Shown here: one piece after another, positions 1,256 through 47,292 of the stretch | Layout: the number at the start of each line of letters is the position of its first letter | Numbering within the stretch: the first letter of the stretch is position 1 | Assembly (NCBI GenBank): GCA_015064355.1 | Contig: SVSJ01000020.1 | Location: forward strand, 1 to 49,878 | DNA length: 49,878 nucleotides | Source: Oscillospiraceae bacterium | GTDB taxonomy: Bacteria; Bacillota; Clostridia; Oscillospirales; CAG-272 | Direction of reading: 5' to 3' | Made by a program: the position numbers and the translations under genes | The notes under the pieces: generated by a model | Seen by the model: the letters and a program-made list of their open reading frames with translations, nothing else | Database searches by the model: none | Told to the model about the DNA's origin: nothing

Positions 1256-1381
1256 GGTTTTTATAAAAATCGGCAAGAATTTTGTGCGTAGAATTTTTGA
1301 CGAAGTTTACGGCGATAATTTGTATATATTGCACAACATCGCATTTCCAACCCTCTTTATATGGTTTTACCCTTCGAAATT
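1256..1381. other. AT-rich spacer without recognisable gene
   Basis: This stretch between the S10 promoter and the composite repeat is AT-rich. I see no coding signal, strong hairpin or promoter in it beyond what could act as upstream A-tracts for the S10 promoter. Confidence 0.5.
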
Positions 1382-1914
1382 TAGAAAAACAAAACCATAG
1401 GTTTAATTACCTGTGTTAATTTGAACCTGAACTAACGACTTAGCCTCACTAAATTGGTGAAGCCACGAACAGCATCCTTGCAAATTTGCTGTGCACGTTG
1501 TGCCAAGAGAGGAGATTCCAAAGAGGAGAGAATCAGAACACGCAAGTGTTCCTCTTCTCTTTGGTGCCGGGGTTCACAGGGATGCGGCATGAGCATTCCT
1601 GTGTTCCGTGCGAACAGCACATAACTCGCTTCACGCGTAGTGCATTTCAGCTATGCGCTAGGCACATAAGGAGGTTCATGCCACCTCCTTATGAATCCAG
1701 GCACTTAAAGGGGGAAAGACGCAGGCTCAATTTCCCCCTTTAAGAATTCCCCCTTTGTTTTCCACGAGAGTGGAAACTCGTTAGTACAGTCGTCCGTGGC
1801 CTACAGTTTTCACGCATAGTGAAAACTCGCTCGCCTCGGTTCGATTTGGAACAGGTATTTTTTCAAACATTTGCTTTTCTAAATGTAGAAAAACTAAACC
1901 ATAGGTTTGATTAA
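1382..1914 (+). repeat. Composite modular repeat, locus A
   Basis: Non-coding composite of modules also found at 16085-17200 and, inverted, at 37885-38302. Module M0 (1382-1467) matches 16505-16590 over the same 86 nt with only about three differences. M2 (about 1500-1605) has a long stem 1518-1530/1552-1564 capped by a GAACAC-GCAA-GTGTTC hairpin. M1 (about 1651-1758) has two perfect stems: 11 bp at 1665-1675/1683-1693 and 14 bp at 1704-1717/1731-1744. A connector with an 8-bp GTTTTCAC/GTGAAAAC hairpin leads into a second partial M0 (1885-1914). Short ORFs here show no coding constraint. Confidence 0.8.
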
Positions 1915-1952
1915 CCACTCAAGTAATACACGCAAAAAATCCCCCTACCCCC

Positions 1953-1981
1953 TTGTTATTTGCCGCATTTTGTGGTATTAT
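1953..1981 (+). promoter_or_regulatory. Promoter for the 2023-4984 gene group
   Basis: TTGTTA and TATTAT are separated by 17 bases, about 40 bases before the start codon at 2023. The -10 is strong and the -35 moderate. Confidence 0.55.
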
Positions 1982-2022
1982 ATATAATGTATATTTAGGT
2001 AAGTTATTGAAAGGCCTTTGCC

Positions 2023-2859
2023 ATGAAGAGAAAAGCATTTTTAAGCGTATATAAAAAAGCCGCACCGATCCTCCCGGCACTGGGAATCATCATCGCCATC
2101 GGATATTTCCTGGCTATGAAAAGAGACTTTGAATACTCCATTCACCATTTTGCCCGCGATTCCGTTTGGTTCTGGATATTCGCAGGCGCAGGAGTCATCG
2201 CTTTTGCCATTTCCGCCATTCTGGCCGTTATTCCTATGAAGACATTGGCAATCGCAAAATCCCCCATTCCCTCTCCGGCAGGATTGTTCGCAACCATCCT
2301 TTGCGCTGTAATGTGCATAGGTACCCTCATCACTGAAACAAGGGTTGGACCTGAGCAGATCATCAGCCCCATGCAAAAGCTGGGCGGCCTCCTTTGCATC
2401 TTTATCGCACTCACATTTGCCATGTCTTGCGTAAAGAAATATCGCGGTGGCCTCCTCCACAAGATCGCATCCATTCTGGGCCTGTTCTCCGTTAATGCCG
2501 CAATGTTCGCGTGCTATTTCGATTTCTCCGAGCCTCTGAACGGTCCCGTCAGAAATATTACAACAATAATGCAGGCCGCTGTAATTCTGATTCTAATTTC
2601 AGAAACTCGCCTCGCCTTCGGTGTTCCCGCAAAGAGAGTAACTTCCGTTCTGTATATCTTCTCTTCCTGCGTAACATCATCCCTTGCCCTGGGCTTCTCA
2701 CTTGGCGGAATCATTTACGGAATATTCTCTTCAAACTCCGCCGACCCCAACCTGCCCCTCTTCAGACTTGGCGTGTATCTGGCAGTTGCAATCTTTGCTG
2801 TGGATAGAATGATCCAGCTTCCCGCCATCGCAGCAGACGCAGTAAACGACCCCGAATAA
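2023..2859 (+). CDS. Uncharacterised polytopic membrane protein
   Basis: A 278-residue protein I do not assign to a known family. It has about eight hydrophobic segments, roughly residues 14-32, 47-68, 86-104, 122-138, 148-170, 182-198, 212-236 and 243-262, with short charged loops, so it is almost certainly an integral membrane protein. The ATG follows AAAGG at suitable distance. It is followed 48 bp later by a TelA-family gene and then a TPM-domain gene, which may form one transcript from the promoter at 1953. No catalytic motif is visible, so no function is proposed. Confidence 0.8.
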   Translation: MKRKAFLSVYKKAAPILPALGIIIAIGYFLAMKRDFEYSIHHFARDSVWFWIFAGAGVIAFAISAILAVIPMKTLAIAKSPIPSPAGLFATILCAVMCIGTLITETRVGPEQIISPMQKLGGLLCIFIALTFAMSCVKKYRGGLLHKIASILGLFSVNAAMFACYFDFSEPLNGPVRNITTIMQAAVILILISETRLAFGVPAKRVTSVLYIFSSCVTSSLALGFSLGGIIYGIFSSNSADPNLPLFRLGVYLAVAIFAVDRMIQLPAIAADAVNDPE

Positions 2860-2907
2860 CAAAAAACTTCAGAAATAAAATAAATCAATATATAAGGAGA
2901 CTATACT

Positions 2908-4062
2908 ATGGATAACGAAATCAAGCTGACTCTTGATCCTACCGCCGGAATATCAACACCGGCAACCGCAGCGGCTGCAGCAGCAGAAGCTCCCAAGGTA
3001 GAAATCCCCGCAGAGCAGGTAAAGGTGCTCGACGAATCCCAGTTCACCGAAAGCGAACGCAAGGTCATTGACGATTTCTCGGCGCAGATCGACATCACCG
3101 ACTCCGCTATGATCCTTGGATATGGCGCGGCTGCCCAGAAAAAGATCTCCGACTTCAGCGATACAGCCCTCGGCGGCGTAAGGAACAAAGACTTCGGAGA
3201 GGTTGGCACAATGGTGACCGATCTTATCTCCAATCTTCGCGAAATGAACGACGAGGCCGAAAACGACACCGGTTTCAAAAAGCTTTTCAGATCAACAAAG
3301 CGCAAAATACAGGATATCAAGCTGAAATATGACAAATGCGAAAGCAGCGTAAACTCTATCGTTGGAATCCTCGAGCAACACCAGATCACCCTTCTCAAGG
3401 ATATTTCAATGTTCGACGAGCTTTACGAAATGAACCTCTCCTATTTCAAGGAGCTGTCAATGTATATCATCGCCGGCAAGAAGAAGCTTGAAAAGGAACG
3501 CGCTACTACCCTTGTTGAGCTGAAGGAAAAAGCAAAGACAAGCGGTCTTCCTGAAGACGCACAGGCTGCAAACGATTTCGAGGAGCAGTGCGTACGCTTC
3601 GAGAGAAAGCTCCACGACCTTGAGCTTACCCGTATGGTATCCATTCAGATGTCTCCTCAGATCAGACTGGTGCAGAACAATGATACCATGATGACCGAAA
3701 AGATCCAGACAGTTATCATGAACACTATTCCTCTCTGGAAGAGCCAGATGGTTATTGCGCTGGGAATCGAGCATTCCCGTCAGGCAATGGAAGCTGGCCG
3801 CGCTGTTACCGATATGACAAACGAGCTTCTCAAAAAGAACGCATCTGCACTGAAGCAGGCAACTGTTGAGATCACCAAGGAAGCGGAGCGCGGTATCGTG
3901 GATATCGAAACCCTCACCCAGACCAACGCAGACCTTATCGCAACTCTTGACGAGATCCAGAATATTCAGAAGGAAGGCCGCGACAAGAGAGCCCTGGCGG
4001 AAGCAGAGCTTGGCAGAATCGAATCCGAGCTTAAAGCAAAGCTTATCGGCATAAATTCATAA
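2908..4062 (+). CDS. TelA/toxic anion resistance family protein
   Basis: A 384-residue, mostly alpha-helical cytoplasmic protein of the TelA family (tellurite/toxic anion resistance; homologues include Bacillus YceH). After an Ala-rich N-terminal stretch (residues about 17-33) it has the typical charged helices, with a coiled-coil-like middle (about 110-230) and a conserved-looking segment RAVTDMTNELLKKNA near residue 300. AAGGAGA precedes the ATG. The family is linked to envelope stress and tellurite resistance but its biochemistry is poorly known, so a specific role here is not claimed. It is followed four bases later by a TPM-domain membrane protein. Confidence 0.85.
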   Translation: MDNEIKLTLDPTAGISTPATAAAAAAEAPKVEIPAEQVKVLDESQFTESERKVIDDFSAQIDITDSAMILGYGAAAQKKISDFSDTALGGVRNKDFGEVGTMVTDLISNLREMNDEAENDTGFKKLFRSTKRKIQDIKLKYDKCESSVNSIVGILEQHQITLLKDISMFDELYEMNLSYFKELSMYIIAGKKKLEKERATTLVELKEKAKTSGLPEDAQAANDFEEQCVRFERKLHDLELTRMVSIQMSPQIRLVQNNDTMMTEKIQTVIMNTIPLWKSQMVIALGIEHSRQAMEAGRAVTDMTNELLKKNASALKQATVEITKEAERGIVDIETLTQTNADLIATLDEIQNIQKEGRDKRALAEAELGRIESELKAKLIGINS

Positions 4063-4078
4063 AAAAGTGGTAAACGCT

Positions 4079-4984
4079 ATGAAAAGAAATAATTATATCC
4101 GCATACTTACATTTATCATAGCCGTAATAACGGTCTGTGCCCTTGCTTTGCCCACCTTTGCGGCATATCCCAAGGCTGACGGTTATGTAGCAGACGAAGC
4201 GGGAGTTCTTGCACAGTCCACAATCCGCCAGATTAACAAGACAAACGAAACTCTCAAGAAAGACGCCGGCCTTACAATCGCAGTATGCGCTGTCAAGACC
4301 ACGGGAGACGTTTCGATTGCTGAATATGCCAGGGGACTTTACACCGAGTGGAAGCTTGGTGAAGGCGTGCTTATTCTTATTGCAGCAGAGGACGAGAACT
4401 ATTACATAGTTCAAAGTACCGGCATTGAAAACCAGCTTACCAACGCTGACATCGAAGCTATCCGCGACGGTTATCTTGAAGACGATTTCGCCGCAGGAAA
4501 TATTGACTCCGGTGTGCTCAAGGCGTTTTCCAAGCTGACCTCCGAACTCGAGGACGGAATCGAAGCACCTGTGGCAGATGATACCCCGGCAGACGACACA
4601 AATGAAAATAATAATGAAGAAAACGAAGGCACTACCGCAGGCAAGGTTATCGTAACAATCCTGAAAGTGATCCTTTACATAGCTCTCTTTGCTCTGGCAG
4701 CCTTTGTTATCCTCTTCGTTGTGGCTATGTTCAATGATGACGCGGCAGCTCTTCTTCAGAGATATGTTTTCCGCCGTGGAAAGTACAATCCCGCGCAGCA
4801 GACATATTATGACGAGAGACTTTACGGTAACGGCAATCGCCGACCCCAGCAGCAGAGACCGCAGCAGAGACCGCAGAATCCCGGTCAGAGAAGAAACCCC
4901 AATCAGATGTACAACGCTGACGGCACACCCCGCAAGCCACAAAACAGCGGCAACCGTAACAACCGCAGCGGCTACGGCTATTGA
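4079..4984 (+). CDS. TPM-domain membrane-anchored protein (YgcG-like)
   Basis: An N-terminal signal segment (residues about 7-25, ending near TFA) is followed by a TPM domain, about residues 30-150, with the usual VADEAGVLAQSTIRQIN start. A low-complexity acidic linker, one transmembrane helix (about 186-212) and a Gln/Asn/Arg-rich cytoplasmic tail follow. TPM domains have been reported with phosphatase activity in plants and occur in bacterial membrane proteins of unclear role. The ATG at 4079 is preferred because it leads directly into the basic signal peptide and has GTGG upstream; an in-frame GTG at 4067 is the alternative. It lies just downstream of the TelA-family gene. Confidence 0.8.
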   Translation: MKRNNYIRILTFIIAVITVCALALPTFAAYPKADGYVADEAGVLAQSTIRQINKTNETLKKDAGLTIAVCAVKTTGDVSIAEYARGLYTEWKLGEGVLILIAAEDENYYIVQSTGIENQLTNADIEAIRDGYLEDDFAAGNIDSGVLKAFSKLTSELEDGIEAPVADDTPADDTNENNNEENEGTTAGKVIVTILKVILYIALFALAAFVILFVVAMFNDDAAALLQRYVFRRGKYNPAQQTYYDERLYGNGNRRPQQQRPQQRPQNPGQRRNPNQMYNADGTPRKPQNSGNRNNRSGYGY

Positions 4985-5001
4985 TCCACAAACCAATAAT
5001 C

Positions 5002-5030
5002 AAAAAAGGCGGACAATGTTCGCCTTTAGA
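5002..5030. terminator. Hairpin after TPM gene
   Basis: AAAGGCG (5005-5011) pairs with CGCCTTT (5021-5027) around a nine-base loop. The plus-strand T-run is interrupted, so it is a weak terminator in the direction of the upstream genes and stronger in the other direction. Confidence 0.5.
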
Positions 5031-5059
5031 TTTATTAATACTAACACAAGGAAAACACA

Positions 5060-7009
5060 ATGATCTCCATAAGCACTACCGATCTTTCATACAGGATCGG
5101 CACACGAGAAATAATCGCAGACGTATCCTTCTCCTTAGAGGAAGGGGATCGCCTTGCAATTGTGGGAGTAAACGGAAGCGGCAAGTCCACACTTCTGAAA
5201 ATGCTCTGCGGCGAGTACGAGCCCGACGAGGGAAACGTGTACATTGCCAAGGATAAAACTGTGGGAATGCTCCACCAGGACGACGCATTTAATATAATTG
5301 AAGGAAACGGTGGTCCGGACTCCCCTATAAACAACACAGTACTCGGTCAGATGTACGCTGTTTTTGCGGAGCTTTGTACAGCAGAAGTGCGACTGGCGAA
5401 GATCCAAACAGAGCTTGACCGCACGTCTCCCGACGACACAGAGACCCTGAATCGCCTTTCCACCGAGTACAACAATCTGAACAACCGCTACATCCGCGAC
5501 GGCGGCCTTTACTATCAGTCCCGTTGCCGCAGTATACTTGAAAATCTTGGATTTGGCGAAGAATACTGGAATCTTCCAGTTACCAGCATGAGCGGAGGTC
5601 AGAGGACGAGACTCGCTCTTGCCAGACTCCTTTCCCGTGAGCCTGACATTCTCATCCTCGACGAGCCCACAAACCACCTGGACCTCGACACAATGCTGTG
5701 GCTGGAGAATCATCTGGCAGCTTACAACAAGTCGAAAACCGTGATCCTTGTTTCCCACGACCGACTGTTCCTTGACCGTGTCACAAACAAGACTCTCGAC
5801 ATCGAGAATCAGCGGGCAAAGCTTTATAAATGCAGCTATTCCCAGTACGTAGTGGAAAAAGAAAAGTTCCGCAAGGAACAGGAAAAGAGATATGATCTTC
5901 AGCAAAAGGAGATCGCGCGGCTTGAAGCTTACATTGAGCAGCAGAGACGATGGAACCGTGAGCGGAATATCATCGCCGCAGAATCCAGAGAAAAAGCGAT
6001 TGCCCGAATGGAAAAGGTTGAAAAACCAAAGGCGGCCCCCAAATCCATCAGCTTTGCCCTGCACTCTTCCGGGGAATCGGGCAACGACGTAGCGAAGATC
6101 AAAAATCTCACTATGGGATTTGGGGAGAACATCCTCTTCAAGAATGTGTCCTTTATGGTAAAAAAGCGGGATCGCTTGTTTATCACAGGCCACAACGGCT
6201 GCGGAAAGTCTACGTTTATCAAGATACTCCTCGGTCAGCTTGAGCCACTTGCCGGAGAGATCGAGTTCGGTTACAACGTAACTGTCGGCTACTACGATCA
6301 GGAAAACCAGAATCTTGACGAAGGAAACACAGTTCTTGACGAGCTGTGGAACGCCTACCCCAATCTGACCCAAACAGAGATCCGCAATACCCTAGCCCTC
6401 TTTATGTTCCGGGGCGACGATATTGAAAAATCCGTGTCAGTCCTCTCGGGCGGTGAGCGTGCACGGTTGACTCTGGCAAAGCTGATTCTTTCACGAATGA
6501 ATCTACTGATCCTTGACGAGCCCACAAACCACTTGGACATCGAATCACGCGAGGCACTTGAAAATGCCCTCCGTGAGTTTGACGGAACTATAATCACCGT
6601 GTCTCACGACCGTTATTTCTCCCGTCAGCTTGCAACAAGGTTTATTGATCTGGGCGCAGGTGGCAGAGAATTCAACGGAAACTACGACGAATATATGGCC
6701 TGGAAGGAAGCACGGGCTGCCGAGGGATACTTCAAGGATGACAAGCCTGCCGAGCAAAAAGGCAAGGAGGAATACCTGGAGCGGAAACGGTCAAACGCGG
6801 AGCGTCGCAAGGCTGAAAAGCGCAAGGCTGAAGTTGCACGCGAGATCGCAAAGCTGGAAAAAGAGATCGTGGAGATCGACGATCTGCTCTTTGGCGAAGC
6901 GGCAACAGACTATATCCGCGCAGCAGAGCTTACTGATCGGAAGATCACCGCAGAGGACATACTTATGTCTCTCTACGCCGAGGAAGAAGAACTCGCAGAC
7001 CTTGAGTAA
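5060..7009 (+). CDS. ABC-F family ATPase
   Basis: A 649-residue protein with two ATP-binding cassettes in one chain and no transmembrane segment, the pattern of ABC-F proteins that act at the ribosomal E-site. Cassette 1 has Walker A GVNGSGKST (about residue 36), signature SGGQRTRLALARL (about 178) and Walker B LDEPTNHLD (about 201). Cassette 2 has GHNGCGKST (about 377), SGGERARLTLAKL (about 463) and LDEPTNHLD (about 485). A Lys/Glu-rich coiled coil forms the last 100 residues, as in Uup/YfmR-type members. A role in translation rescue is more likely than antibiotic resistance, but the sequence cannot settle this. Confidence 0.93.
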   Translation: MISISTTDLSYRIGTREIIADVSFSLEEGDRLAIVGVNGSGKSTLLKMLCGEYEPDEGNVYIAKDKTVGMLHQDDAFNIIEGNGGPDSPINNTVLGQMYAVFAELCTAEVRLAKIQTELDRTSPDDTETLNRLSTEYNNLNNRYIRDGGLYYQSRCRSILENLGFGEEYWNLPVTSMSGGQRTRLALARLLSREPDILILDEPTNHLDLDTMLWLENHLAAYNKSKTVILVSHDRLFLDRVTNKTLDIENQRAKLYKCSYSQYVVEKEKFRKEQEKRYDLQQKEIARLEAYIEQQRRWNRERNIIAAESREKAIARMEKVEKPKAAPKSISFALHSSGESGNDVAKIKNLTMGFGENILFKNVSFMVKKRDRLFITGHNGCGKSTFIKILLGQLEPLAGEIEFGYNVTVGYYDQENQNLDEGNTVLDELWNAYPNLTQTEIRNTLALFMFRGDDIEKSVSVLSGGERARLTLAKLILSRMNLLILDEPTNHLDIESREALENALREFDGTIITVSHDRYFSRQLATRFIDLGAGGREFNGNYDEYMAWKEARAAEGYFKDDKPAEQKGKEEYLERKRSNAERRKAEKRKAEVAREIAKLEKEIVEIDDLLFGEAATDYIRAAELTDRKITAEDILMSLYAEEEELADLE

Positions 7010-7040
7010 GAGAGCATTTGCGGGAAAAATTATATACACA

Positions 7041-7081
7041 AAAAAATGGTGGAATGTCAACTGGCACTCCACCGTTTTGTT
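7041..7081. terminator. Bidirectional terminator between ABC-F gene and dxs
   Basis: GGTGGA (7048-7053) pairs with TCCACC (7068-7073), extended by an inner TG/CA pair, with an A-run before and a T-run after. It can serve both convergent transcripts. Confidence 0.8.
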
Positions 7082-8920
7082 TTATCTCTTATCTATAATT
7101 TTTCTTATTCCCTCCTGGTCAAGTCCTGTGTACTCCATTAAGTACCCAAGATCTCCGTGGGGGATCATTGTGTCTTCAATCGCCTTGATCTCAACTCTGG
7201 GCATTACCCAGTCAGCCGACGCCAAATGCTCTCCTATTCCGCCGGACCGCGCAGATTCTTCAACGAACAGCACGCGCTCTGCTGAATTTATGAGATTTTT
7301 AAATTCCTCATCCTGCGGTAAGGGATATATTCTGCGCAGTACTGCAACGGTGGTGTCAGTCTCTGCCATGCCTGCCGCCCGAACTACGTTCTCTGCGATC
7401 CTACCATAGGTTACGATGACAGTCTTGCCGTTGCCCATGGATTTCCACTCACCGTGTTCGGTAAATTCGCAGTCGTATTTCGCCTCCCCTGCCTTGGGAT
7501 ACCTGACCACCGTCAAACCGCTGCCCATTTCCGCGTCCTTCATTGAGGTACGGAATGCTGCAAAATCGTCCGGGGAGTAAATAGTCGCACCGGGAATCCT
7601 TGTGAGAAGGGACACGTCGAAAATTCCCTGATGTGTAACTCCGTCACCGGGCACAAGGCCTGCGTGGCTTAATAGAAGCATAATATGCACGTCCTTCTGC
7701 AGGGCAACGTCGTGCCAAAGCTGGTCGAAAACTCTCTGGGAGAACGTGGAATACATAACAAGCGCTGGGAGGATGCCCTCTTTAGCTCCACCGATGGCAA
7801 GACCTGCCGCAGTTGTGACCGCGTGTTCTTCTGCGATTCCCACGTCAAAGAATCTCTCCGGGAATATTCCCGCAAAATTTCCAAGGCCGCAACCGTCAGT
7901 CATGGCCGCAGTAATGCCCACGATTCCACGGTTTTTCGCCGCCATTTCACAAAGGGTGTCAGACACCTGGTCGGTAAAGGTTCGTTTTTTCGGCTTGTCT
8001 TCATTTCCGTCAAGAGCAAATCCACCGGTACTGTGATACCGCTCGGGATGCTCCTCTGCCGGGGCGTAGCCAAGTCCTTTTTTCGTTTTTATATGCACGA
8101 TCACGGGGCAGGCCATAAACTTTGCCTCCTCGAGAACGCTTATCATCTTGTTTATGTTGTTGCCGTCAACAGGACCGATATATTCAAGTCCCAAAGACTC
8201 AAACCAGGTCTGGGCGCCGAGTAGTCTTTTCGCAAACTCCTTGACCTTGTACGCGCCAACTGCAACGGTTTTTCCTATAAGAGGAATGCCGCGGAGAAAT
8301 CCGTTGATCTTCATTTTGAAGTTGAAGTAGCTCTCCGAAGTGCGGATCTTGGAGAGGTAAGCAGAAAATCCGCCCACGTTTTTGGAAATGGACATTTCGT
8401 TATCGTTTAGCACGATTATGAGCCGCAGATTCTTCGCCGCGATCTGCTCAAGTGCTTCAAACACCATTCCGTTGGTAAACGAGCCGTCGCCGATCACCGC
8501 TATGGCCCAGTTGTCACGACCCGCAAGCCGGTTTGCTTCAGCAATTCCAACCGCAGTTGAGAGAGATGTGCCGCAATGTCCCGCTGTAACGGTGTCATAA
8601 GAGCTTTCGCCACGGTTTGTAAATCCCGACAGCCCGCCCTTTTGACGAATGGTGGAAAACTCTGCCTGTCTGCCAGTCAAAAGTTTGTGAGCATATGCCT
8701 GATGACCCACGTCGAACACAATGGAATCGTCAGGGCATGAAAAGACGCGGTGCAAAGCAACAGTCGTATCCGTTATTCCAAGGTTGGATGCAAGATGACC
8801 GCCATTTTGCGCCGCCGTTTCGATTATTTTTTGCCGTATCTCACCGGCGAGGATGGGTAGCTCCTTTTGGCTAAGGGCACGCACATCCTCGGGCGAGTTT
8901 ATTTTCGGTAGTATTTGCAT
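7082..8920 (-). CDS. dxs: 1-deoxy-D-xylulose-5-phosphate synthase
   Basis: Thiamine-diphosphate enzyme that condenses pyruvate and glyceraldehyde 3-phosphate, the first step of the MEP isoprenoid pathway. The 612-residue product has the TPP-binding GDGSFTNGMVFEALE motif near residue 143, the HLASNLG start typical of the family and the catalytic-Glu region GIAEEHAVTTAAGLA near residue 360. TGGAG precedes the ATG. It lies 23 bp after dnaB, so it is probably the last gene of the gdpP-rplI-dnaB-dxs transcript. The last codons overlap an AGATAAGAGATAA tract. Confidence 0.96.
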   Translation of the reverse strand: MQILPKINSPEDVRALSQKELPILAGEIRQKIIETAAQNGGHLASNLGITDTTVALHRVFSCPDDSIVFDVGHQAYAHKLLTGRQAEFSTIRQKGGLSGFTNRGESSYDTVTAGHCGTSLSTAVGIAEANRLAGRDNWAIAVIGDGSFTNGMVFEALEQIAAKNLRLIIVLNDNEMSISKNVGGFSAYLSKIRTSESYFNFKMKINGFLRGIPLIGKTVAVGAYKVKEFAKRLLGAQTWFESLGLEYIGPVDGNNINKMISVLEEAKFMACPVIVHIKTKKGLGYAPAEEHPERYHSTGGFALDGNEDKPKKRTFTDQVSDTLCEMAAKNRGIVGITAAMTDGCGLGNFAGIFPERFFDVGIAEEHAVTTAAGLAIGGAKEGILPALVMYSTFSQRVFDQLWHDVALQKDVHIMLLLSHAGLVPGDGVTHQGIFDVSLLTRIPGATIYSPDDFAAFRTSMKDAEMGSGLTVVRYPKAGEAKYDCEFTEHGEWKSMGNGKTVIVTYGRIAENVVRAAGMAETDTTVAVLRRIYPLPQDEEFKNLINSAERVLFVEESARSGGIGEHLASADWVMPRVEIKAIEDTMIPHGDLGYLMEYTGLDQEGIRKIIDKR

Positions 8921-8943
8921 TATTACTCCAAATTAATTGCCCC

Positions 8944-10281
8944 TCAGGCTTCTGTTTCTCTTGCAAGGTTGGTAAATTTGGTGTATCTGCCGATCCAGCC
9001 AAGCTTTACCTTGTCAAGTGAGCCGTGACGGTTTTTCGCAACGATCACTTCTGCAACAGACTGGTCAGTAGTCGCGTCCTTGTAGTACTCGTCACGGTAG
9101 AGGAACAGAACGATATCTGCGTCCTGCTCGATTGCGCCGGAGTCACGAAGGTCGGACAGCATAGGTCTCTTGTCAGGTCTGTTTTCAGGTCCACGGGAAA
9201 GCTGCGCGCAACAAACCACAGGTACACCAAGCTCCTTAGCCAGAAGCTTCAGACCTCTTGAAATGTCGCCGACTTCCTGAACACGGTTATCGTTCCGACG
9301 GTCTCCCTGCATAAGCTGAAGGTAGTCGATGAGAACCAGACCCAGGTTCTTTACTCTGCGAAGCTTTGACTTCATTGCAGTAACGGAAATACCGGGGGTA
9401 TCGTCAATGAGAATATCAGTTTCGGAAAGGCGTGATGAGGCATGAGCGATGGCGTTCCAGTCCTCGCCGCTAAGCTCACCGGATCTCATTTTATAGCTGT
9501 CGATCTGCGCTTCACTGGACAGCATACGGTTTGCAAGCTGTTCAGCGGACATTTCCAGAGAGAACACGCAAACGGTCTTTTTGGTCTTGATAGCCGCCTC
9601 TGTTGCAATATTCATTGCGAATGAGGTTTTACCCATACCGGGGCGGGCACCGATAAGAACCAGGTCAGAGTCACCCATACCAACGATAACGTTGTCAAGG
9701 GCGGAGAATCCCGTGGGGGTTCCGCGAAGTGCATCCGGATCCTGGGAAAGCTTTGTGAGTCGGTCGTAAACCTGAACCAAGGCGTCGCGGATATGTACGA
9801 AGCTTTTGTTTTCTCTGCCTTCGGCAATTCTGAAAACCTTGCCCTCTGCGTATTCAACAAGGGCCTCTGTATCGTCATCTCCTGCGTAAGCCGCTTCAGC
9901 AATATCCTCACCTGCTTCAACAAGCTGACGAAGCACTGCCTTGTCGCGCACGATCTTGGCGTAGTCCATAGCGTTTACTGCCGCGGGCACTGCCTCTGCA
10001 ACAAGCTTGAGATATTCACGTCCGCCGGCCTCATCGTAAGTTCCGCTCTGAACAAGCTCTTCAATAAGGGTGACCACGTCTATGTTCTTTGATTTCAGAT
10101 ACATAGACTGCATAGCGGTGAAGATCTGGCTATGCTCCGGGAGATAGAAATCGTCCGCCTTGATTACCGCAACAAGATCATCAAGACACGCAGGCTTTAT
10201 TAGAATGGAGCCAAGAAGGGATTGCTCCGCTTCAAGTGAGAACGGCATCCGCCGCTCCAGTTTATCAAAATCCGTATTCAT
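8944..10281 (-). CDS. dnaB: Replicative DNA helicase
   Basis: Hexameric 5'-3' helicase that opens the replication fork (DnaC in Bacillus). The 445 residues comprise the N-terminal primase-interacting domain, beginning with the family signature SLEAEQSLLGSIL near residue 15, and a RecA-like domain with Walker A GARPGMGKT near residue 208 and the LVLIDYLQLM Walker B segment. GGAGGAG precedes the ATG. It is downstream of rplI, as in many Firmicutes. A 20-nt tandem hairpin array lies in the 200-bp gap to rplI. Confidence 0.97.
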   Translation of the reverse strand: MNTDFDKLERRMPFSLEAEQSLLGSILIKPACLDDLVAVIKADDFYLPEHSQIFTAMQSMYLKSKNIDVVTLIEELVQSGTYDEAGGREYLKLVAEAVPAAVNAMDYAKIVRDKAVLRQLVEAGEDIAEAAYAGDDDTEALVEYAEGKVFRIAEGRENKSFVHIRDALVQVYDRLTKLSQDPDALRGTPTGFSALDNVIVGMGDSDLVLIGARPGMGKTSFAMNIATEAAIKTKKTVCVFSLEMSAEQLANRMLSSEAQIDSYKMRSGELSGEDWNAIAHASSRLSETDILIDDTPGISVTAMKSKLRRVKNLGLVLIDYLQLMQGDRRNDNRVQEVGDISRGLKLLAKELGVPVVCCAQLSRGPENRPDKRPMLSDLRDSGAIEQDADIVLFLYRDEYYKDATTDQSVAEVIVAKNRHGSLDKVKLGWIGRYTKFTNLARETEA

Positions 10282-10365
10282 TACGGCTCCTCCGAATTCA
10301 TTTCTTAATAAATGCTGACTAATTTAATAACATAACACTTTTTGCCGTCAGGCTAAAATAACCAT

Positions 10366-10470
10366 AGCTCGACGAAGTCGAATACAACTTGACGAAGTCA
10401 AATACAACTCGACGAAGTCGAATATCACTTGACGAAGTCAAATATAACTCGACGAAGTCGAATATAACTG
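10366..10470. repeat. Tandem mini-hairpin array 1 (five 20-nt units)
   Basis: Five direct 20-nt units (starting near 10368, 10388, 10408, 10428, 10448), each with a 13-nt hairpin and a linker close to AATATAACT. The stems alternate: units 1, 3 and 5 read TCGAC-GAA-GTCGA, units 2 and 4 read TTGAC-GAA-GTCAA. Both arms change together, so pairing is preserved. It lies between rplI and dnaB. Confidence 0.9.
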
Positions 10471-10481
10471 CGCCGGGCAGC

Positions 10482-10925
10482 TTATTCGTGTACCAGCACG
10501 TTGATCTTGCCGGAGATCTCGGGATAAAGCTTAACGTCAACTGTGTATGAGCCGTATGCCTTGATCTGATTTGCCATAACGATCTTGCGCTTGTCGATCT
10601 CGATCTTATGCTGTGCGAGAAGTGCTTCAGCGATATCCTTGGTGGTAACAGAACCGTAGAACTTGCCGTCGTTACCCTGCTGGATCTTGATCTTTACAAC
10701 AAGAGCCTGGAGTGCAGCGGCAGTTTCTCTTGCAGCCTGCTTCTCAAGCTCGATCTTGCGAAGTCTTGCTGCTTCCTTGTTCTTTATATCGTTAAGGATC
10801 TTTGCATCAGCTTCAACAGCCAGCTTCTTGGGGAAGAGGAAGTTACGCGCATATCCATCGGAAACGTTGATGAGCTCGTCCTTCTTGCCCTGTCCTTTAA
10901 CATCCTGTAAAAGTACTACTTTCAT
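10482..10925 (-). CDS. rplI: 50S ribosomal protein L9
   Basis: L9 binds 23S rRNA with its N-terminal domain and reaches along the ribosome surface through a long helix. The 147-residue product starts [15 protein letters not shown], has the [15 protein letters not shown] signature near residue 22, a Lys/Glu-rich linker helix and a C-terminal RNA-binding domain. The start at 10925 is chosen because GGAGG lies seven bases upstream; a longer frame begins with non-family residues. It sits between gdpP and dnaB, the usual Firmicutes order. Confidence 0.97.
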
Positions 10926-10963
10926 TGTTATATCCTCCGTTGTATAGAAAATGCTATTTATGT

Positions 10964-11035
10964 TGAGACTCTGTCTCAAACTCTGCCAAAGAAACTTTTT
11001 GAAAAAAGTTTCCTTGGAACCTTCAAAAACTTTCC
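10964..11035. other. Two hairpins between gdpP and rplI
   Basis: A perfect 17-nt hairpin, TTGAGAC-TCT-GTCTCAA (about 10964-10980), is followed by an AT-rich hairpin made of GAAACTTTTT and AAAAAGTTTC (about 10991-11012). On the minus strand these lie in the gdpP-rplI gap and could attenuate or process the transcript. They could also be remnants of the repeat families seen elsewhere. Confidence 0.5.
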
Positions 11036-11053
11036 TGATAAATAAGTTCGTCC

Positions 11054-13069
11054 TTACGCGACGTACTTGTCGATGGCGGATCTAAGTCTTGCGATGATCT
11101 CGCCCATTGTGGATTCCTTGACCTGCGCAGCAGCTCCGTCGAAGTGACCGCCGCCGCCCATTTCTTCCATAATTAGCTGAACGTTAAGCTCACCTGCGGA
11201 ACGTGCGGAAATGTGAACCGTGTCACCGATACGCACAGCCGCAAAGCTTGCTTTGATTCCCTCAACCTTCAGCAGATTGTCAGCCGCCTTTGCCGCGATA
11301 ATTCTGTAGGATCCGTCCGCCTCGTCATCATCGCCGACCACAGTGATAGCGCACACGCCCTTGTAGGTTTCCACGTTACTGCGGAATTTCGCTTCACGCT
11401 TGTAATCGTCAACGCTTTCTCTGAACAGCTCCTGAACCACTGTAGGATCAGCCCCCCGGTCACGGAGATACATAGCGGCGGAGAAAGTTCTCGTACCGGT
11501 GTTCTTCGTGAACTGTTTTGTATCAAGGGTGATGCCCGCCAGCATTACGTTTGCTTCAGCCGCGGAGAGATAATCCTTGGGGAGAACCTGCTCCAGCATT
11601 TCCGCCACAAGCTCACAGGTAGCAGAAGCGGAAGGCTCGATATACTCAACGTCCGGCTCGTTCTCGAACTCGGATGTTTTTCTGTGGTGGTCAATGATTG
11701 CCAGCTTGTCCGTGCGGTAAGCAAGCTCGGGCATCTCGGCGATAGTCAGGTTGTTCACGTCTGACACGATAACCAAAGTGCCGGTTTCGAGAGTGTCGAG
11801 AGCAGTTGCACCGTCAATAAGCACGCCGCGGAATATTTCTTCCGTTTCAAGGAGCTTGCGGCAGCCGAGAAGATTGGCATCAGCCATATCTATAACGATG
11901 TTGACCCTTGCACCGCAGAACATGGCGATTCTTGCAAGGCCTACACAGGAGCCGAATGCATCAAAGTCCGCGTACTTGTGGCCCATAATAAGCACGTTGG
12001 TTGCTCTCTTCATTGCAGCCATCAGCTCATTGGAAACAACTCTCGCACGGACGTTGGTTCTCTTCTGAACGGTCTTTGTTACCCCGCCGTAGAAGTCCAT
12101 AGATTCGTCGCTCTTAACCGCCGCCTGGTCGCCGCCTCTCTGGAGAGCCATATCAAGAGCCGCATGTGCCGCCCTTTCCTTGTCCTCGAATGTTCCGTGA
12201 ACCGCAGACACGCCCATAGAGATAGTCAAGGGCAGATTTGTGTCTCCAACCTTAACTCCGCGAACACGGTCGAGGATCTCGAACTTTTCACTGATAAGCT
12301 CGTCCAGCACCCGATTTTCGGTGATGAACAGGTACTTGTCTCTCTCAAACTCCTTGAGAATACCGTTGTATTCGTCAGCCCAGGAGCGAAGAAGCTCGTC
12401 TATCTTGGAGGATGCGGGGCGGTACTGCTCACTGTCGTACTGCATCATTTCGCTAAGGTTGTCGATCATAATGTAGCATACAACCGCTTCGTCCCCTGCC
12501 ATCTTCTCGCTTATCATATCAACTTCAGTGGTTTCTGTGGTGATTATCAGAGCGAAATCGTCTTCTTCGGTTTTTATGTGATGATATTTAGCTGTAAAGG
12601 ATCTCTCTCCAATGGAGAAACGGGCACCCGCCTCGCTTCTGTCGTTTCGTATATCTGTAAGGGATACTCCGCAGATCTCCGAAACTGTAACTCTGTGGGA
12701 TTTGCTTTTCTCACCGCGCAGGGTCTCAAAAGCGCTGTTCGACCAGAGGATCTGCTCGGCAGAATTGCAAATAAACACAGGCGACTGCATCTTCAGCACA
12801 GCATCATACATAATGCGTCCCATAACAGGGGCCAGGGTCTCGTCCATTACATCTCTGCCCCTGATCTTTTCGATGATCAGATACGCGCTAATACATATAC
12901 CTGCGTGAACGACAAGGGCAAGGACTCCCCAGACAATGGGATTGACCTTTGTAAACACAGACAGAACCGTTGCCAATGCCAAGCACAAAATACCGCTTCC
13001 GCCGGCAATAAGGACACTTTCCAGCCGCGCCTTTCTCACGTCATTTTTATCTTTAACGTTTTTAGTCAT
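11054..13069 (-). CDS. gdpP: Cyclic-di-AMP phosphodiesterase GdpP
   Basis: Membrane-bound DHH-DHHA1 enzyme that hydrolyses c-di-AMP, controlling osmolyte balance and cell-wall stress. The 671 residues show two N-terminal transmembrane helices (about 18-40 and 44-66), a PAS-like domain (about 80-150), a degenerate GGDEF domain ending in the GdpP-typical RGGDQAAVK near residue 318, and a DHH domain with [12 protein letters not shown] (about 361) and DHH (about 458). DHHA1 has [10 protein letters not shown] near residue 643. The length is close to the 659 residues of Bacillus GdpP. It leads the rplI-dnaB-dxs transcript. Confidence 0.96.
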
Positions 13070-13166
13070 AAATCAAGTCAGCCTTTCTAAAATTATGTTG
13101 GGATACGCTGTAGCCGCATCCGCATTTTTTGGTATACTAACCCATAGTAAGACTATTATAAAGTAT

Positions 13167-16084: not shown

Positions 16085-17200
16085 GTAATAGCACTACGCG
16101 TAGTGCATAAAAACCGAACGAACCGAGGATGAAATCCTCGAGGGTTGGATTCTTTTTGTTCGCACAAAACTGTATATCCCATCTAACACATATACCAAAA
16201 CGAACCGAGGATGAAATCCTCGGGGGTGGGATTCTCTTTGTTCGCACAAAACTGTATATCCCACCCAGGCTATGCGCAAGGCACATAAGGAGGTTCATGC
16301 CACCTCCTTATGAATCCAGGCACTTAAAGGGGGAAAGGAGCAGGCTCAATTTCCCCCTTTAAGAAACCCCCCTTTGCTTTCAATGAGAGTAGAAGCTTAT
16401 TAGTGTGGTCGTCCGTGGCTTACAGTCTTCACGCATAGTGAAAACTTGCTCGCCTCGGTTCGATTTGTCACGGATATTTTCTCAAACATTTGCTTTTCTA
16501 AATATAGAAAAACTAAACCATAGGTTTAATTACCTGTGTTAATTTGAACCTGAACTAACGATTTAGCCTTACTAAATTGGTGAAGCCACGGAAGGCAAAC
16601 TAACGAATTCCGCCTGCACGTGGTGCCAAGAGAGGAGATTCCAAAGAGGAGAGAATCAGAACACGCAAGTGTTCCTCTTCTCTTTGGTGCCGGGGTTCAC
16701 AGGGGTACGACACGAGTATCCCTGTGCGCCAGCCGCGTAGGCAAAGATTGCGCCCCACGCGTAGGGCATGAAAACCGAACAAACCGAGGATGAAATCCTC
16801 GAGTGTGGGATTCTCTTTGTTCGCACTTTCTATATATCCCACCCAGGCTATGCGCAAGGCACATAAGAGGCCTCCGCGTCAAGGCTCTCTTTCCGAGGTT
16901 GCGAAGCAACTCATCGAGTTCGCGTTGCGAATCTCGGATGAATCACCTGCCGCTTAAGGGAGGAGAGTCAAAGCCTGTCCTCCCTTAAGAATCCCTCCTG
17001 TTTTCAACGAGAGTGAAGACTTATTTGTACGGCTGCACGTATTGTCAAGAGAGGAGATTTTTAAGAGGGGAGAATCGAGCTTGCTCGCCTTCCCTCTTAA
17101 AAGCCGGGGATCACAGGGGTACGGCTCGAGTACACTTGTGCGCCTCACGCGTAGTGCTGTTGTATGCCAACCGCGTAGGCAAAGTCTGTCGAACAGATTT
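16085..17200 (+). repeat. Composite modular repeat, locus B (largest block)
   Basis: About 1.1 kb of non-coding modular repeat. Order: palindrome CACTACGCGTAGTG (16092-16105); M3 twice (about 16107-16266), each with hairpin CGAGGAT-GAA-ATCCTCG; M1 (16267-16374); connector; M0 (16505-16590); M2 (about 16618-16722); M3 again (about 16768-16850); a variant M1 (16853-16998) whose second stem is CTTAAGGGAGGA/TCCTCCCTTAAG; and a variant M2 (about 17045-17145) with stem TTTTAAGAGGG/CCCTCTTAAAA. The contiguous part 16267-16722 reproduces the module succession of locus A. I see no conserved protein in any frame. Confidence 0.82.
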
Positions 17201-17243: not shown

Positions 17244-20096
17244 TTATCTGGCTACTTCTTCCATGATATATGCTTCGAGTACGTCGCCTTCGCGAATGTC
17301 GAGGCACTTCTCAAGGCCGATACCGCACTCGTAACCTGCAGCAACTTCACGAACGTCGTCCTTGAAGCGGCGGAGGGAGGAGATCTTGTCTTCCATTATA
17401 ACGATACCGTCGCGAACGATTCTGATCTGGGACTGGCGAGTTACCTTACCGTCCTGAACGTAAGAACCTGCGATCATACCAACGCCGGGAACCTTAATGG
17501 TCTGGCGAACGGAAATGTGGCCCTGGAGAACTTCCTTGAATGTGGGAGCGAGCATACCCTTCATAGCTGCGGTGATCTCTTCGATACACTCGTAAATGAT
17601 ACGGTATGTGCGGATGTCAACGTCCTGTCTTTCCGCAGAGTCAAGAGCAGACTTGTCGGGACGAACATTAAATCCTACAATAATAGCACCGGAGGTAGCC
17701 GCAAGCATAACGTCGGACTCGCTGATACCACCAACGGCAGAGTGGATAACGCGAACCTTAACCTCGTCTGTGGAGATCTTTTCGAGAGACTGCTTAACAG
17801 CTTCCGCAGATCCGCCAACGTCAGCCTTAACGATAATGTTAAGCTCCTTAACACCTGCAGCGATCTGGCTGAACAGGTCGTCAAGGCTTACCTTTGCGTT
17901 AAGTCTGAACTGCTCTTCCTTAGCCTTCATCTTTCTCTGCTCTGCAAGCTCACGAGCCATTCTTTCGTCTTCAACAGCGTTGAACTCATCACCTGCCATA
18001 GGAACCTCGGAGAGACCAATGATCTCAACGGGAACGGAAGGACCGGCAACCTTGAGGGTTCTGCCCTTATCGTTTGTCATAGCACGGACGTGACCAACAG
18101 ATGTGCCGGCAATAACGATGTCGCCTGCTTTGAGGGTACCGTCCTGAACGAGAACTGTCGCAACGGGACCGCGGCCCTTATCGAGCTTCGCTTCAATTAC
18201 AACACCCTTCGCTCTCTTTGCGGGGTTAGCCTTGTATTCCTTAACGTCAGCAATAAGGAGGATGTCCTCAAGAAGATCGGTAATACCCATTCTTGTGTGA
18301 GCAGACACGGGAACGCACATAATGTCGCCGCCCCATTCTTCGGGAACGAGGTCGTACTTTGTGAGCTCTGTCTTAACTGCTTCAGCGTTTGCGTGAGGCT
18401 TATCCATCTTGTTGATAGCAACGATGATCTCAACTCCCGCAGCCTTTGCGTGGTTGATAGCTTCAACTGTCTGGGGCATGATACCGTCGTCACCCGCTAC
18501 AACGAGAATAGCGATGTCAGTACACTGTGCACCGCGGGCTCTCATTGCGGTAAACGCTTCGTGACCGGGGGTGTCGAGGAATGTGATCTCACGACCGTCG
18601 ATCTCAACTCTGTAAGCACCGATGTGCTGTGTAATACCGCCGGCTTCGCCTGTTGTAACGTTTGTATGACGGATAGCATCAAGGATAGATGTCTTACCGT
18701 GGTCAACGTGACCCATTACGCAGACAACGGGTGCGCGGATCTCGAGATCTTCTTCGTTTTCGGGCTCATCCACACCGAAGAGCTTTTCTTCGATAGTCAC
18801 CTTAACTTCCTTGGTAACAACAGCGCCAAGCTCGTCAGCAATAAGATATGCTGTATCGTAGTCGATGATCTGGTTAACAGTCGCCATAACGCCCATCATC
18901 ATAAGGCGCTTGATACATTCAGCCGCTGTAACCTTAAGTCTTTGTGCAAGCTCGCCAACGGAGATCTCGTCGGGAATAGTAACCTTGAGAGGCTGCTTCT
19001 TTGCCTTTTCCTGGTTAGCCTTCTGAAGCTTCTCCATAGCAAGACGTTCCTTGTCGTTCTTCTTGCCCATGGGACGGTTGTTGTTCTGCTTCTTCAGCTT
19101 CTGCTTGTTGGACTGTGTATCGTCGATATCGTGAGAGAAGTTCTCAAGACGCTCGTCGTATTTGGAAAGGTCAACGTTACCACCGCGAGTATCAACTACG
19201 CGCACGTTACCTGTTCTCTTCTTTTCAATACCCTGCTCAAACTTGGGCTTGGGCTGGGGCTTAATGGGTGCTCTGTCCAGGCCGTAGTCCTTATCCTTTG
19301 CGGGACCGCGGTTCTGGTTAAAGCCGCCCTGCTGGTTGCGATTGTCACGGTTCTGGTTGAAACCGCCCTGACCCTGCTGACCGCCAAATCTGTTCTGACC
19401 CTGCTGGCCTCCCTGACGGTTGTCGCGGTTCTGGTTAAAGCCGCCCTGCTGATTATTATCGCGGGGCTGGAAGCGGTTGCCTTGCTGGTTGTTAGCCGGA
19501 CCGCGATTGTTGTCACGGTTGTCTCTGGGCTGGAAGCGATTGTCAGCAGGCTTGGTCTGTGCATTTGCCTTAGCTTTTGCTTCAGCTTCCGCCTTTGCTT
19601 TTGCTTCAGCTTCTGCCTTAGCCTTTGCTTCAGCTTCTGCCTTAGCCTTTGCCTCAGCTTCTGCCTTAGCTTTTGCCTCAGCTTCTGCCTTAGCTTTTGC
19701 CTCAGCTTCCGCCTTTGCTTTTGCTTCAGCTTCTGCCTTAGCTTTTGCCTCAGCCTCCGCCTTAGCCTTTGCCTCAGCTTCTGCCTTGGCTTTTGCTTCA
19801 GCTTCTGCCTTGGCTTTTGTTTCAGCTTCCGCGGCCTCGCGTGCAGCCTTCTTTTCGGGGGATTCAGGCAGTGTAATCTGAGTCTTACCCTTCATATATC
19901 CGTCAATATCCTTAATACTTGCTTTAGCGGTAAGACTACCAAAAAGGAGGTTTACCTCATCAGCCTCAAGGGATGCGGAATTGCTCTTAATAGCTATACC
20001 AAGGGTCTCAAGTTCTCCTGTGAGCTCCTTGGGCTTAATTCCCAGGTCTTTTGCGATTTGGTTAATTTTGAACATCGAATTTGACTTCGTTGCCAT
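17244..20096 (-). CDS. infB: Translation initiation factor IF-2
   Basis: GTPase that brings initiator tRNA to the 30S subunit. The 950 residues comprise a short N-terminal IF2N-type domain (1-55), a long low-complexity linker, a second IF2N domain (about 350-400), a G domain with GHVDHGKTS (about 460), DTPGHEAF and NKMDK, and the C-terminal domains ending in YIMEEVAR. The linker has about eleven copies of an AEAKAKAE octapeptide (residues about 90-178) and then Asn/Gln/Gly/Arg-rich repeats with QNRDNR units. It is the last gene of the rimP-nusA-rnpM-ylxQ-infB operon. Confidence 0.97.
19566..19830 (-). repeat. infB: 24-nt coding tandem repeat in infB
   Basis: About eleven 24-nt units encode AEAKAKAE-type octapeptides in the IF-2 linker. 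Units differ mainly at third positions (GCTTCTGCC, GCTTCCGCC, GCCTCCGCC), so the peptide is conserved beyond the DNA. Copy number is likely to vary between strains. Confidence 0.9.
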
Positions 20097-37884: not shown

Positions 37885-38302
37885 GTGTGGAATTATGCAC
37901 TGCGCGTGGGGTTGGGTGGGATATATCATTTTGTGCGAACAAAAAGAATCCCACCCTCGAGGATTTCATCCTCGGTTCGTTAGGTTTTCATGCACTGCGC
38001 GTGGGGCGCAAAAAGCACTGCGCGTGAGGCGCACAAGAGGTGTTCCGTGTCCACACCTCTTGTGAATCTCCGTCCACTCAAGGAGGGAGGCTGACGCTGA
38101 TTCTCCCTCCTTAAGAATCCTCCCTCTTGGCACTACGTGCACAGCAGATTCGCAAGGATGCTGTCCGTAGCATCACTGAATGTTGGCTTCGCCAAATTCG
38201 CGAGGTTTCCATGGCACGGGGAAACCTCGGCCTTCAAAACCGTTATTTGACCTTCAAATTAACACAGGCAATTAAACCTGTGGTTTAGTTTTTCTGAATT
38301 TT
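37885..38302 (-). repeat. Composite modular repeat, locus C (inverted)
   Basis: Read on the minus strand it has M0 (from about 38302), a CGAGGTTTCC/GGAAACCTCG hairpin with TTGGC-GAA-GCCAA, an ACAGCATCC...GCTGTGCACGTAGTGCC segment, a stem of 38103-38115 with 38077-38089, an 11-bp stem 38054-38064/38032-38042 (CACAAGAGGTG), CACGCGCAGTGC copies, and M3 with the CGAGGAT-GAA-ATCCTCG hairpin. The module order is the same as at loci A and B, although stem sequences differ. Confidence 0.8.
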
Positions 38303-43127: not shown

Positions 43128-43310
43128 TCCGAGGTTTCCACGTGTCATGGGAACCTCGCGAATTTGGCGAAGCCAACATTCACCGTAGGGGACGGCGTCC
43201 TCGACGTCCCGCCTGTTAGGTTTTCACCGTACGCCGCGGACTAGGGCAAGCTTCGCCCATACGGGGTTGGCGTTTCAACAGTTCGACAAGTTGGGATTCA
43301 TTATACAAAG
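43128..43310 (+). repeat. Repeat block D with GGGACG core
   Basis: Contains CGAGGTTTCC/GGGAACCTCG, the C-GAA-G hairpin TTGGC-GAA-GCCAA (43164-43176), both shared with locus C, then the GGGACG...CGTCCC core (about 43187-43210) shared with 48863 and 49677, and ends with TTCGACAAGTTGG like those copies. It runs to the stop of the zinc-ribbon gene and joins the two repeat families. Confidence 0.72.
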
Positions 43311-46035: not shown

Positions 46036-47292
46036 TTAACTTAGCGGAATATCATCTTGAGGTAAATCCACATACAATACTTTGCTGCTATCATCAAATA
46101 TTGCACGCACATTGTCCCACTTTAAGCCAATATTTACACTGCATAATGATTCACCGTCTATATAAACCGGCAACATTATATCTCCTCGGGAAACGCGAAT
46201 ATTAACCTGCTTGCCTGCAACCTCTACCGAATATCCGCCGCGTGCTGCTAAAACATCATCCCCATACCGTAAATACATTTCCAGCTTTGTACTGCTCCAT
46301 TTAAGTTTGCCAACATTCGGGAAAAACTTGCATGGTATTTCAACAAATTTCGAGAATGAAATGTATTTTATACCGTCGCACTCTATGATTTTTGTGTCAA
46401 TTATTGTGCCGTAATCTTCATATTCTCCGTTATTTTTGATTAATGCACTTTTTACGGTTATATCAGTTCTATATCCTTGTTCTGTGTAGTCAACGGTTCG
46501 TTTCAGCATGTCGCATGCTTCTTCAAGAGATATTTCGTCGCTCTCCATGTATCCAGCGTTATCTCCTACTAAAATCCCCGCCATTGTCAGATAATAAATT
46601 TCACCCAAACATTCTCTGACAGCCTCACCATCATTCTGTCTTTTTTCGTTGTTGTATTGCTCTGCTTGATATGATAGCCCTGCTATTCTGGCAATCAAAA
46701 TATATGCATCATATCTGGTAATATTTGCAGACAAATTAACCACCATCGGATCTGTTTCTCTCAACAGCCCATAGTCTAATGCTAATCTCGCATATTCTTC
46801 ATTCAATTCCGGCGGAATAGCACCGGCAAAAAAACTTTCGGAATCGGTTATTTCAGATATCAGCTGCCCAATTTCACTATCAGGAGTCAGATATACCGCA
46901 GTCATAAGCATTTTCACAAATTCAGCGCGAGTTACGAGAGAATCAAAAGCTCGGTCTTCTGCACCAATTGATTCAAGAATTCCGCAAGATTTCGCCCAAT
47001 TGTGTAATTCTTCAGTTGTGAAGATGATGGGGGACTCAGTTTCGACTGGTTCAGTTTCAGCGGAAATAGTAAATTTAGAATTACTCTCATTATCTGTATC
47101 AACGGTGCCGGTGTTCGCTGGTTCGGTTTCGATCGGTTCAATTTCTGTCACAGGAGCATTAGATTCCGTCGCACCGTCTGACTGCCCGGCATCAGGCACA
47201 TCTACATGTGTACATCCAACCAAAGAGAGAAATATTGAAATAGCTATAACAAGCAATAGTGGGATAACTCTTCTTATTTCCAGATTTTTCAT
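46036..47292 (-). CDS. Lipoprotein with SLH-like and stalk domains, copy 1
   Basis: A 418-residue predicted lipoprotein. After a signal peptide with SLVGC lipobox (Cys27) comes an acidic Thr/Glu linker (about 30-85), then SLH-like helices with VTRAEFVKMLMTAVYLTP (about 118-135), ITRYDAYILIARIAG (about 195) and SLEEACDML, and a C-terminal domain with paired strands and VLYVDLP near the end, resembling copper-amine-oxidase-like stalk domains. ATG 47292 is used because it matches the paralogue; ATG 47298 is possible. The first 140 residues are nearly identical to the gene at 47461. Confidence 0.78.
   Translation of the reverse strand: MKNLEIRRVIPLLLVIAISIFLSLVGCTHVDVPDAGQSDGATESNAPVTEIEPIETEPANTGTVDTDNESNSKFTISAETEPVETESPIIFTTEELHNWAKSCGILESIGAEDRAFDSLVTRAEFVKMLMTAVYLTPDSEIGQLISEITDSESFFAGAIPPELNEEYARLALDYGLLRETDPMVVNLSANITRYDAYILIARIAGLSYQAEQYNNEKRQNDGEAVRECLGEIYYLTMAGILVGDNAGYMESDEISLEEACDMLKRTVDYTEQGYRTDITVKSALIKNNGEYEDYGTIIDTKIIECDGIKYISFSKFVEIPCKFFPNVGKLKWSSTKLEMYLRYGDDVLAARGGYSVEVAGKQVNIRVSRGDIMLPVYIDGESLCSVNIGLKWDNVRAIFDDSSKVLYVDLPQDDIPLS

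Follow-up and report, generated by a model that had tools for sequence, protein, structure and literature searches.

REPINs are described, in the available part of the source, as inverted doublets of REP sequences in which the spacer is fixed and changes are compensatory, and excised doublets are reported for them from junction reads (PMC3116915). In the accessible text of a REP survey, head-to-head dimers predominate in most families and tail-to-tail dimers in some, direct ones are absent or rare, and G.T pairs are common in the DNA stems and are taken as a hint of RNA; the terms Firmicutes and Clostridia have no occurrences in that text (PMC3733652). As far as their available text goes, the REP/REPIN papers tie such doublets to RAYT enzymes. 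BOX elements are presented, in the portion of the source at hand, as modules in a fixed order, one of them with variable copy number, which are folded if transcribed, and NIME and Correia elements as small intergenic composites, the Correia ones bounded by 26-bp inverted repeats (PMC3049150). A literature search for such repeats in Clostridia or Oscillospiraceae returned nothing fitting, judged by title and start of abstract within a partial collection.

The window analysed here, a stretch of 49,878 nucleotides from an Oscillospiraceae genome, carries three related loci, A, B and C (Table 1). A preliminary description had reported that modules M0, M2, (M3), M1, a connector and again M0 follow each other in the same succession at all three, with locus C inverted, and this order was confirmed, with coordinates right to some tens of bases. 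A de novo repeat search recovered all three loci through the direct families D3, D4, D7, D8, D10 and D12 and the inverted pairs I1-I6 and I8. ORFs of 85 aa are present in loci A and B, on different strands. The sequence of locus A folds far better than its shuffles on both strands (z -12.0 and -9.2). When the source assembly (G000; 2.17 Mb, 57 contigs, 80% complete) was searched, locus A gave 56 matches (best non-self E 3.2e-101) and locus B 51, one of them with 92% identity over query 115 to 680. Covariance model R1 found 46 units at E of 5.6e-5 or better, in 24 clusters, across the window and 20 fetched stretches, with covariance-model E-values reaching 1.9e-20. Model R2 found 50 units in the whole assembly, so that a few lie outside the fetched stretches. 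Three contigs of the assembly (C41, C55 and C5) end inside a copy. A structured interspersed repeat is thereby well supported.

The preliminary description had named a known Rfam family as a counter-explanation, and none of the elements matched one at the gathering cut-off; Gut-1 and an S10 leader were the only matches in the window, and neither lies within an element. A scan below the cut-off, run on elements A and B (locus C was scanned at the gathering cut-off), gave at best E 0.036 with 24.5 of 91 bits, far under the cut-off. The Gut-1 match (10397-10470) lies wholly inside an array of tandem 20-nt palindromic units (CTCGACGAAGTCGAATA...; window 10348-10487) and may therefore be repeat rather than an RNA gene.

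M1 and the connector are a diverged form of the M0-M2 unit, in reverse complement. A covariance model, the check that the preliminary description had proposed, was built from six plus-strand units and finds the opposite-strand units at E 4.3e-13 to 5.6e-5. Since a model trained on plus-strand units alone finds this other half, the repeat consists of one end unit of ~100 nt in two diverged versions, P and N, arranged as an inverted pair. Across the source genome, unit order is not random: of the 22 pairs of adjacent units no more than 700 nt apart, 21 alternate in orientation, and the sole exception (L079) involves a degenerate stretch in which plus and minus matches overlap. Head-to-head pairs measure 341-349 nt start to start in 8/11 cases and 134-142 in the other three, and the ten tail-to-tail pairs 138 to 424. 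In loci of relatives, the best 64 of 74 matches (the 10 weakest were dropped) form 25 neighbouring pairs, of which 24 are head-to-head, one is tail-to-tail and none is direct; among these matches, the head-to-head centre spans 70-73 nt in 14/14 pairs of G008 and 156-303 nt in seven pairs of G005. The commonest spaced arrangement is accordingly the head-to-head inverted doublet N-centre-P, which in locus B measures 443 nt from Y end to Y end. This predominance and the near-constant centre make the doublet the likely propagating unit. Locus B is an array of two head-to-head pairs and three M3 modules, locus C a lone P unit with M3, and locus A a tail-to-tail permutation of the usual doublet. The preliminary description had been right in kind in proposing an amplified structured element rather than ordinary terminators; its sampling of circular or tandem copies is not needed, as alternating inverted units and recombination between copies account for the fixed cyclic order.

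Table 1. Positions of repeat features at loci A, B and C within the 49,878-nucleotide window.
Locus	Feature	Position	Strand	Evidence
A	P-unit head (M0) with AAACCATAGGTTT palindrome	1382..1503	+	repeat search, genome matches, sequence
A	P-unit X-Y core, two hairpins; TGCC(G) pairs with loop (C)GGCA	1504..1603	+	R1 93.8 bits
A	Tail-to-tail joint, mini-hairpins (Z slot)	1604..1664	.	sequence, fold
A	N-unit X-Y core	1665..1758	-	72.7 bits with plus-only model (E 4.3e-13); 98.6 bits with R2
A	N-unit head, M0 palindrome at end	1759..1914	-	repeat search, genome matches
B	Two M3 modules (CGAACGAACCGAGGAT...TTGTTCG, TATCCCA downstream)	16091..16267	+	D7, I1, I4
B	N-unit X-Y core, left end of head-to-head doublet	16284..16377	-	72.1 bits, E 5.7e-13
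B	Head-to-head centre (N head, M0 palindrome, P head)	16378..16626	.	343 start to start
B	P-unit X-Y core, right doublet end	16627..16726	+	92.3 bits
B	Third M3 module	16752..16850	+	D7, I2
B	Second N unit, type AGGAGGGATTC; other palindromic sequence in Y slot	16912..17003	-	33.3 bits, E 5.6e-5
B	Second P unit, X allele TTTTTAAGAGGGGAG; short head-to-head joint, 134 start to start	17046..17140	+	covariance model
C	M3 module, inverted	37911..38007	-	I1, I2, I4
C	Single P-unit X-Y core, Y2 allele; loop GGACACGGA unpaired with strand GTGGAC	38032..38129	-	covariance model
C	P head (M0) with 54-nt insert at 38177-38230	38130..38302	-	I3, I5, I6, I7

The window also holds other repeats. The insert in the head of locus C forms a 54-nt inverted-repeat pair with 43129-43182, and similar inserts occur in C22c, C30 and C35b. 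A second interspersed repeat (CGTAGGGGACGGCGTCCTCGACGTCCC) is found at 43184-43232, 48863-48911 and 49678-49726, and pieces similar to it lie at the edges of element copies in C19, C31 and C22. A 300-nt stretch (46856-47155 and 48377-48676; 95% identical) is shared by a pair of adjacent ORFs, one of which has a weak SLH domain, and a 134-nt repeat by 48830-48963 and 49645-49778; recent duplication or conversion are alternative origins for these two. A 12-nt tandem repeat lies within the IF-2 gene (19504-19880).

Read outward, each unit consists of a purine-rich strand, a GGATTC-like box, hairpin X, a knot strand, a GATTC box, hairpin Y and mini-hairpin Z, and both doublet ends share this architecture. 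In most units, the short strand between X and Y pairs with the Y loop as a pseudoknot. Covariation was assessed on 12 diverse units from 10 genomes, which were picked for a longer Y stem; 23 pairs, knot included, were paired in 95.6% of cells, and 18/23 had changed on both sides, all four knot pairs among them. The covariation score was 0.531, compared with 0.189 for shuffled alignments (0/500 reached the observed value) and at most 0.138 when the alignment was slid. Both the stems and the knot are maintained by covariation as the sequence changes. From 150 aligned of 185 matches, 84 distinct units were obtained, and a knot of at least four Watson-Crick bases was present in 65 of them. In 500 rounds of loop swapping, a control that ignores the relatedness of units, the count was 24.6 on average and 35 at most; for a knot of five bases the figures were 46 of 84 versus 7.5, with a maximum of 15. 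The knot is missing in 19/84 units, including the common Y2 allele of locus C. Among the 27 assignable of 29 P units, 9 of the 12 possible pairings of an X with a Y allele occur, which argues for recombination among copies. A triplex or H-DNA arrangement, with the purine strand as mirror repeat of the X stem, was considered and rejected: in four relatives (G011, G015, G019 and G003) the purine strand is kept and the X stem is not purine-rich.

The strand on which the fold acts was examined by counting G.T against A.C pairs in the outward sense. With the stricter symmetric ends, Y stems gave 39 to 4 (82 distinct stems) and X stems 35 to 9 (74). By three counts, the totals were 26 to 6 and 28 to 3 in the model alignments, 69 to 27 summed over the loose symmetric ends and 74 to 13 summed over the stricter ones, and p-values for this excess are overstated because related units are not independent. 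The X stems of the source-genome N units carry A.C 6 to G.T 4 in the looser-ends count. On these counts the outward strand of each end seems to be the one that acts folded; RNA is favoured as the folded form by the G.T pairs, and it may instead be single-stranded DNA.

One alternative reading takes the units as structured non-coding RNAs, transcribed outward from the centre; the doublet would then be a multiplied pair of divergent RNA genes, and the RNA fold would be what selection maintains. We consider this unlikely. The marked excess of G.T over A.C in the outward strand points towards RNA, but such pairs are also found in REP DNA stems, where, in the available text of the survey, they were likewise taken as an RNA hint (PMC3733652). 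The covarying hairpins and pseudoknot agree with this reading too, as do the terminator-like hairpins noted by eye after units in G012, G004 and G022; yet a single transcript of a doublet would carry one unit in sense and the other in antisense, and the loci lie between genes of every relative orientation. A search for sigma-70-like consensus sites found none in elements A or B, a weak test given that B has 0 against 1.1 expected by chance. The terminator-like hairpins (GAAAAACGCC...GGCGTTTTTC) stand outward of units at L107, L118, L109, L112 and L150, as if the element in these three genomes brought its own terminators.

The distribution of the repeat was surveyed in 25 genomes of the genus, whose assemblies are 66-94% complete. 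With model R3 at E ≤ 0.001 and 150 candidates scored per genome, 12 genomes match: 11 hold 33-102 matches each, G024 holds two, and the other 13 have none. Model R2 at E ≤ 0.01 matches 11/25. A nucleotide search with locus B gave matches in 4/40 genomes, the source included. In a tree built from the final 390 residues of IF-2 in 22 of the 25 genomes, nine high-copy rows fall into three groups among non-carriers; the carrier trait requires four changes, and its clustering is reached by 2/500 shuffles, on a tree with several weak forks. Beyond the genus, at least 7/295 genomes of the order match at E ≤ 1e-5, the source included, and at least 1/391 genomes of the class at E ≤ 1e-6, this one being the source itself; both counts are lower bounds, with 15 and 11 candidates scored per genome, respectively. 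Eleven out-of-genus loci were inspected, the three units tested in G301 are without the knot, and membership of these hits in the repeat is uncertain. One strong unit of the G010/G011 type (L189; E 1e-14) occurs in G077, from another family of the order, through either transfer or a misbinned contig. The exact Y2 hairpin pattern occurs in 10 stretches of a genome collection, all in one Oscillospiraceae MAG (SIG667; the source genome is possibly not included there), and has no matches in viral contigs. A near-search of phage records with one window gene returned none.

In G011, 21 of the 62 matches listed (102 in all) are on the plus strand and start within 170 bases of the first base of their contig, as expected if near-identical copies break assembly. 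The repeat may also explain where contigs end in some of the drafts. Within 20 kb of G008 sequence there are several doublets (L132 and L133; contigs C99 and C108), flanked by chains of other small palindromes (CGATTT..AAATCG, GCAATTTGC..GCAAATTGC).

Insertion sites were compared between the source genome and G005, which are 92% identical in IF-2. Four of five compared sites are occupied in G005, with the matching flanks 25-136 nt apart in the source, where the spacer of 136 nt contains unrelated sequence; the fifth site is not an element. Across these spacers, neither precise excision nor target duplication was demonstrable, the flanks being too diverged between the species. At L075, next to a gene of gyrase B type, the source genome, G005 and G008 all carry an element, so that not all copies are recent. 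Overall, the repeat is likely mobile. A breakpoint in gene order between the source genome and G005 (window 1336-1948) coincides with locus A and, on the G005 side (contig C41, 4102-4889), with an element. Window 1948-13088 is inverted in G005 and adjoins the same S10-side flank, with elements at that junction in both genomes. That the element caused the inversion was considered and is not claimed, as the other junctions carry none.

A simple rule, in which ORFs within the element are disregarded, was used to classify 22 loci lying between long ORFs: 21 of the 24 clusters (three at contig ends were left out) and C18, where only M3-like modules are present. Ten were tandem, seven divergent and five convergent; at locus C the rule chose the wrong strand, and a Pfam-supported gene corrects it to divergent, giving 9, 8 and 5. 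Copies adjoin genes encoding subunits A and B of gyrase/topoisomerase, DNA ligase, RNase P protein and IF-2, as well as an S10 leader. These neighbours, and the gyrase B-type site shared by three species, are consistent with host-serving palindromic spacers of BIME-like function (binding sites, insulators or terminators) that spread only by recombination between copies. We regard this as improbable: a propagating unit better accounts for the nearly all-or-none occurrence across the genus and for the fixed head-to-head centre, and the mixed flanking orientations are unlike those of a terminator. That the loci are relics of unrelated terminators and palindromes with an accidentally shared order, as the abundance of other palindromes in the region and the terminators flanking locus B might suggest, is refuted for practical purposes by the genome matches, namely the long 92% identity (locus B query 115 to 680), the 21/22 alternation and the E-values down to 1.9e-20.

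A gene for the mover was sought by domain. Y1_Tnp is present in 8/25 genomes, four of the 11 high-copy ones and four of the 14 others, and does not track the repeat; no repeat unit was found near the Y1 genes at 11 loci, with ~1.5 kb inspected on each side where the contig allows. The source genome has a single Y1_Tnp, and its protein presumably is of the IS200 TnpA type, as it reads like one. RVT_1 occurs in 12/25 genomes, including 3/11 high-copy ones and none of the source genome, G005 and G008, and likewise does not track the repeat. Cas12f1-like_TNB (TnpB) was found in 2/25 genomes, once under the cut-off, and in 0/11 high-copy ones, and does not track the repeat either. Of 30 ORFs beside copies in the source genome, 22 have Pfam matches and eight have none, and no mobility domain was detected among them. 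No autonomous transposon sharing the element ends was seen in the loci read or in these ORFs, in genomes that are incomplete. Such absences of mover genes are soft because the assemblies are incomplete. The division into 11 high-copy and 13 match-free genomes makes a search for the mover by phyletic profiling feasible.

We consider it reasonably probable that the element is an interspersed repeat of REPIN/BIME type, mobile but non-autonomous, with folded ends, and that it is shuffled by recombination between copies. A trans-acting enzyme would recognise the folded single-stranded ends and would move or copy the doublet into spaces between genes. Homologous recombination or conversion between copies could then generate the longer alternating arrays, the tail-to-tail locus A and the orphan units, and could likewise swap X and Y alleles. 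More tentatively, and with some doubt, the element may represent a distinct class of mobile repeat, in which recognition of the ends depends on a conserved two-hairpin pseudoknot fold and not on sequence, the enzyme is other than Y1, TnpB or reverse transcriptase, and hairpin alleles are interchangeable.

Compared with known systems, the repeat resembles MITEs in being small, non-coding, multi-copy and highly paired with inverted ends; it differs in that the folding itself is conserved. Across flanks too diverged between species no target duplication could be shown, and no parent transposon was found in the loci read or the 30 flanking ORFs. An IS200/IS605 derivative does not fit, with Y1_Tnp absent from 7/11 and TnpB from 11/11 high-copy genomes, nor does a retroelement-derived RNA, with RVT_1 in only 3/11 of them, all counted in incomplete assemblies. 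NIME and Correia elements are likewise small intergenic composites and are likened by analogy only, on the available text; Correia elements have inverted repeats of 26 bp, and covarying hairpin-pseudoknot ends such as those found here are not mentioned in that part of the source (PMC3049150). The fixed module order recalls BOX, whose boxA-boxB(n)-boxC succession is not described, in the same portion, as an inverted doublet of one unit, so that BOX is set apart by arrangement only (PMC3049150). The likeness to REPINs and BIMEs lies in the inverted, mainly head-to-head doublets with a fixed spacer (8/11 in the source genome and 14/14 in G008). REP sequences, however, are single hairpins of 20-40 bp with GTAG/CGTC tags, whereas the present units comprise two hairpins and a pseudoknot over ~75-100 nt and carry GATTC boxes instead. 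REPs and REPINs are tied to a RAYT (Y1) gene flanked by repeats, and the present repeat has no Y1 link; its host belongs to the Oscillospiraceae, and the available text of the REP survey does not mention Firmicutes (PMC3733652). The repeat thus works like a REPIN but departs from it in two defining features, size with tag and the RAYT association, and is therefore not filed as one. If this reading is true, it would be a pseudoknotted Oscillospiraceae counterpart of REPINs that does without a RAYT-type enzyme and is nearly all-or-none between species, and would suggest a further route by which small DNA is moved.
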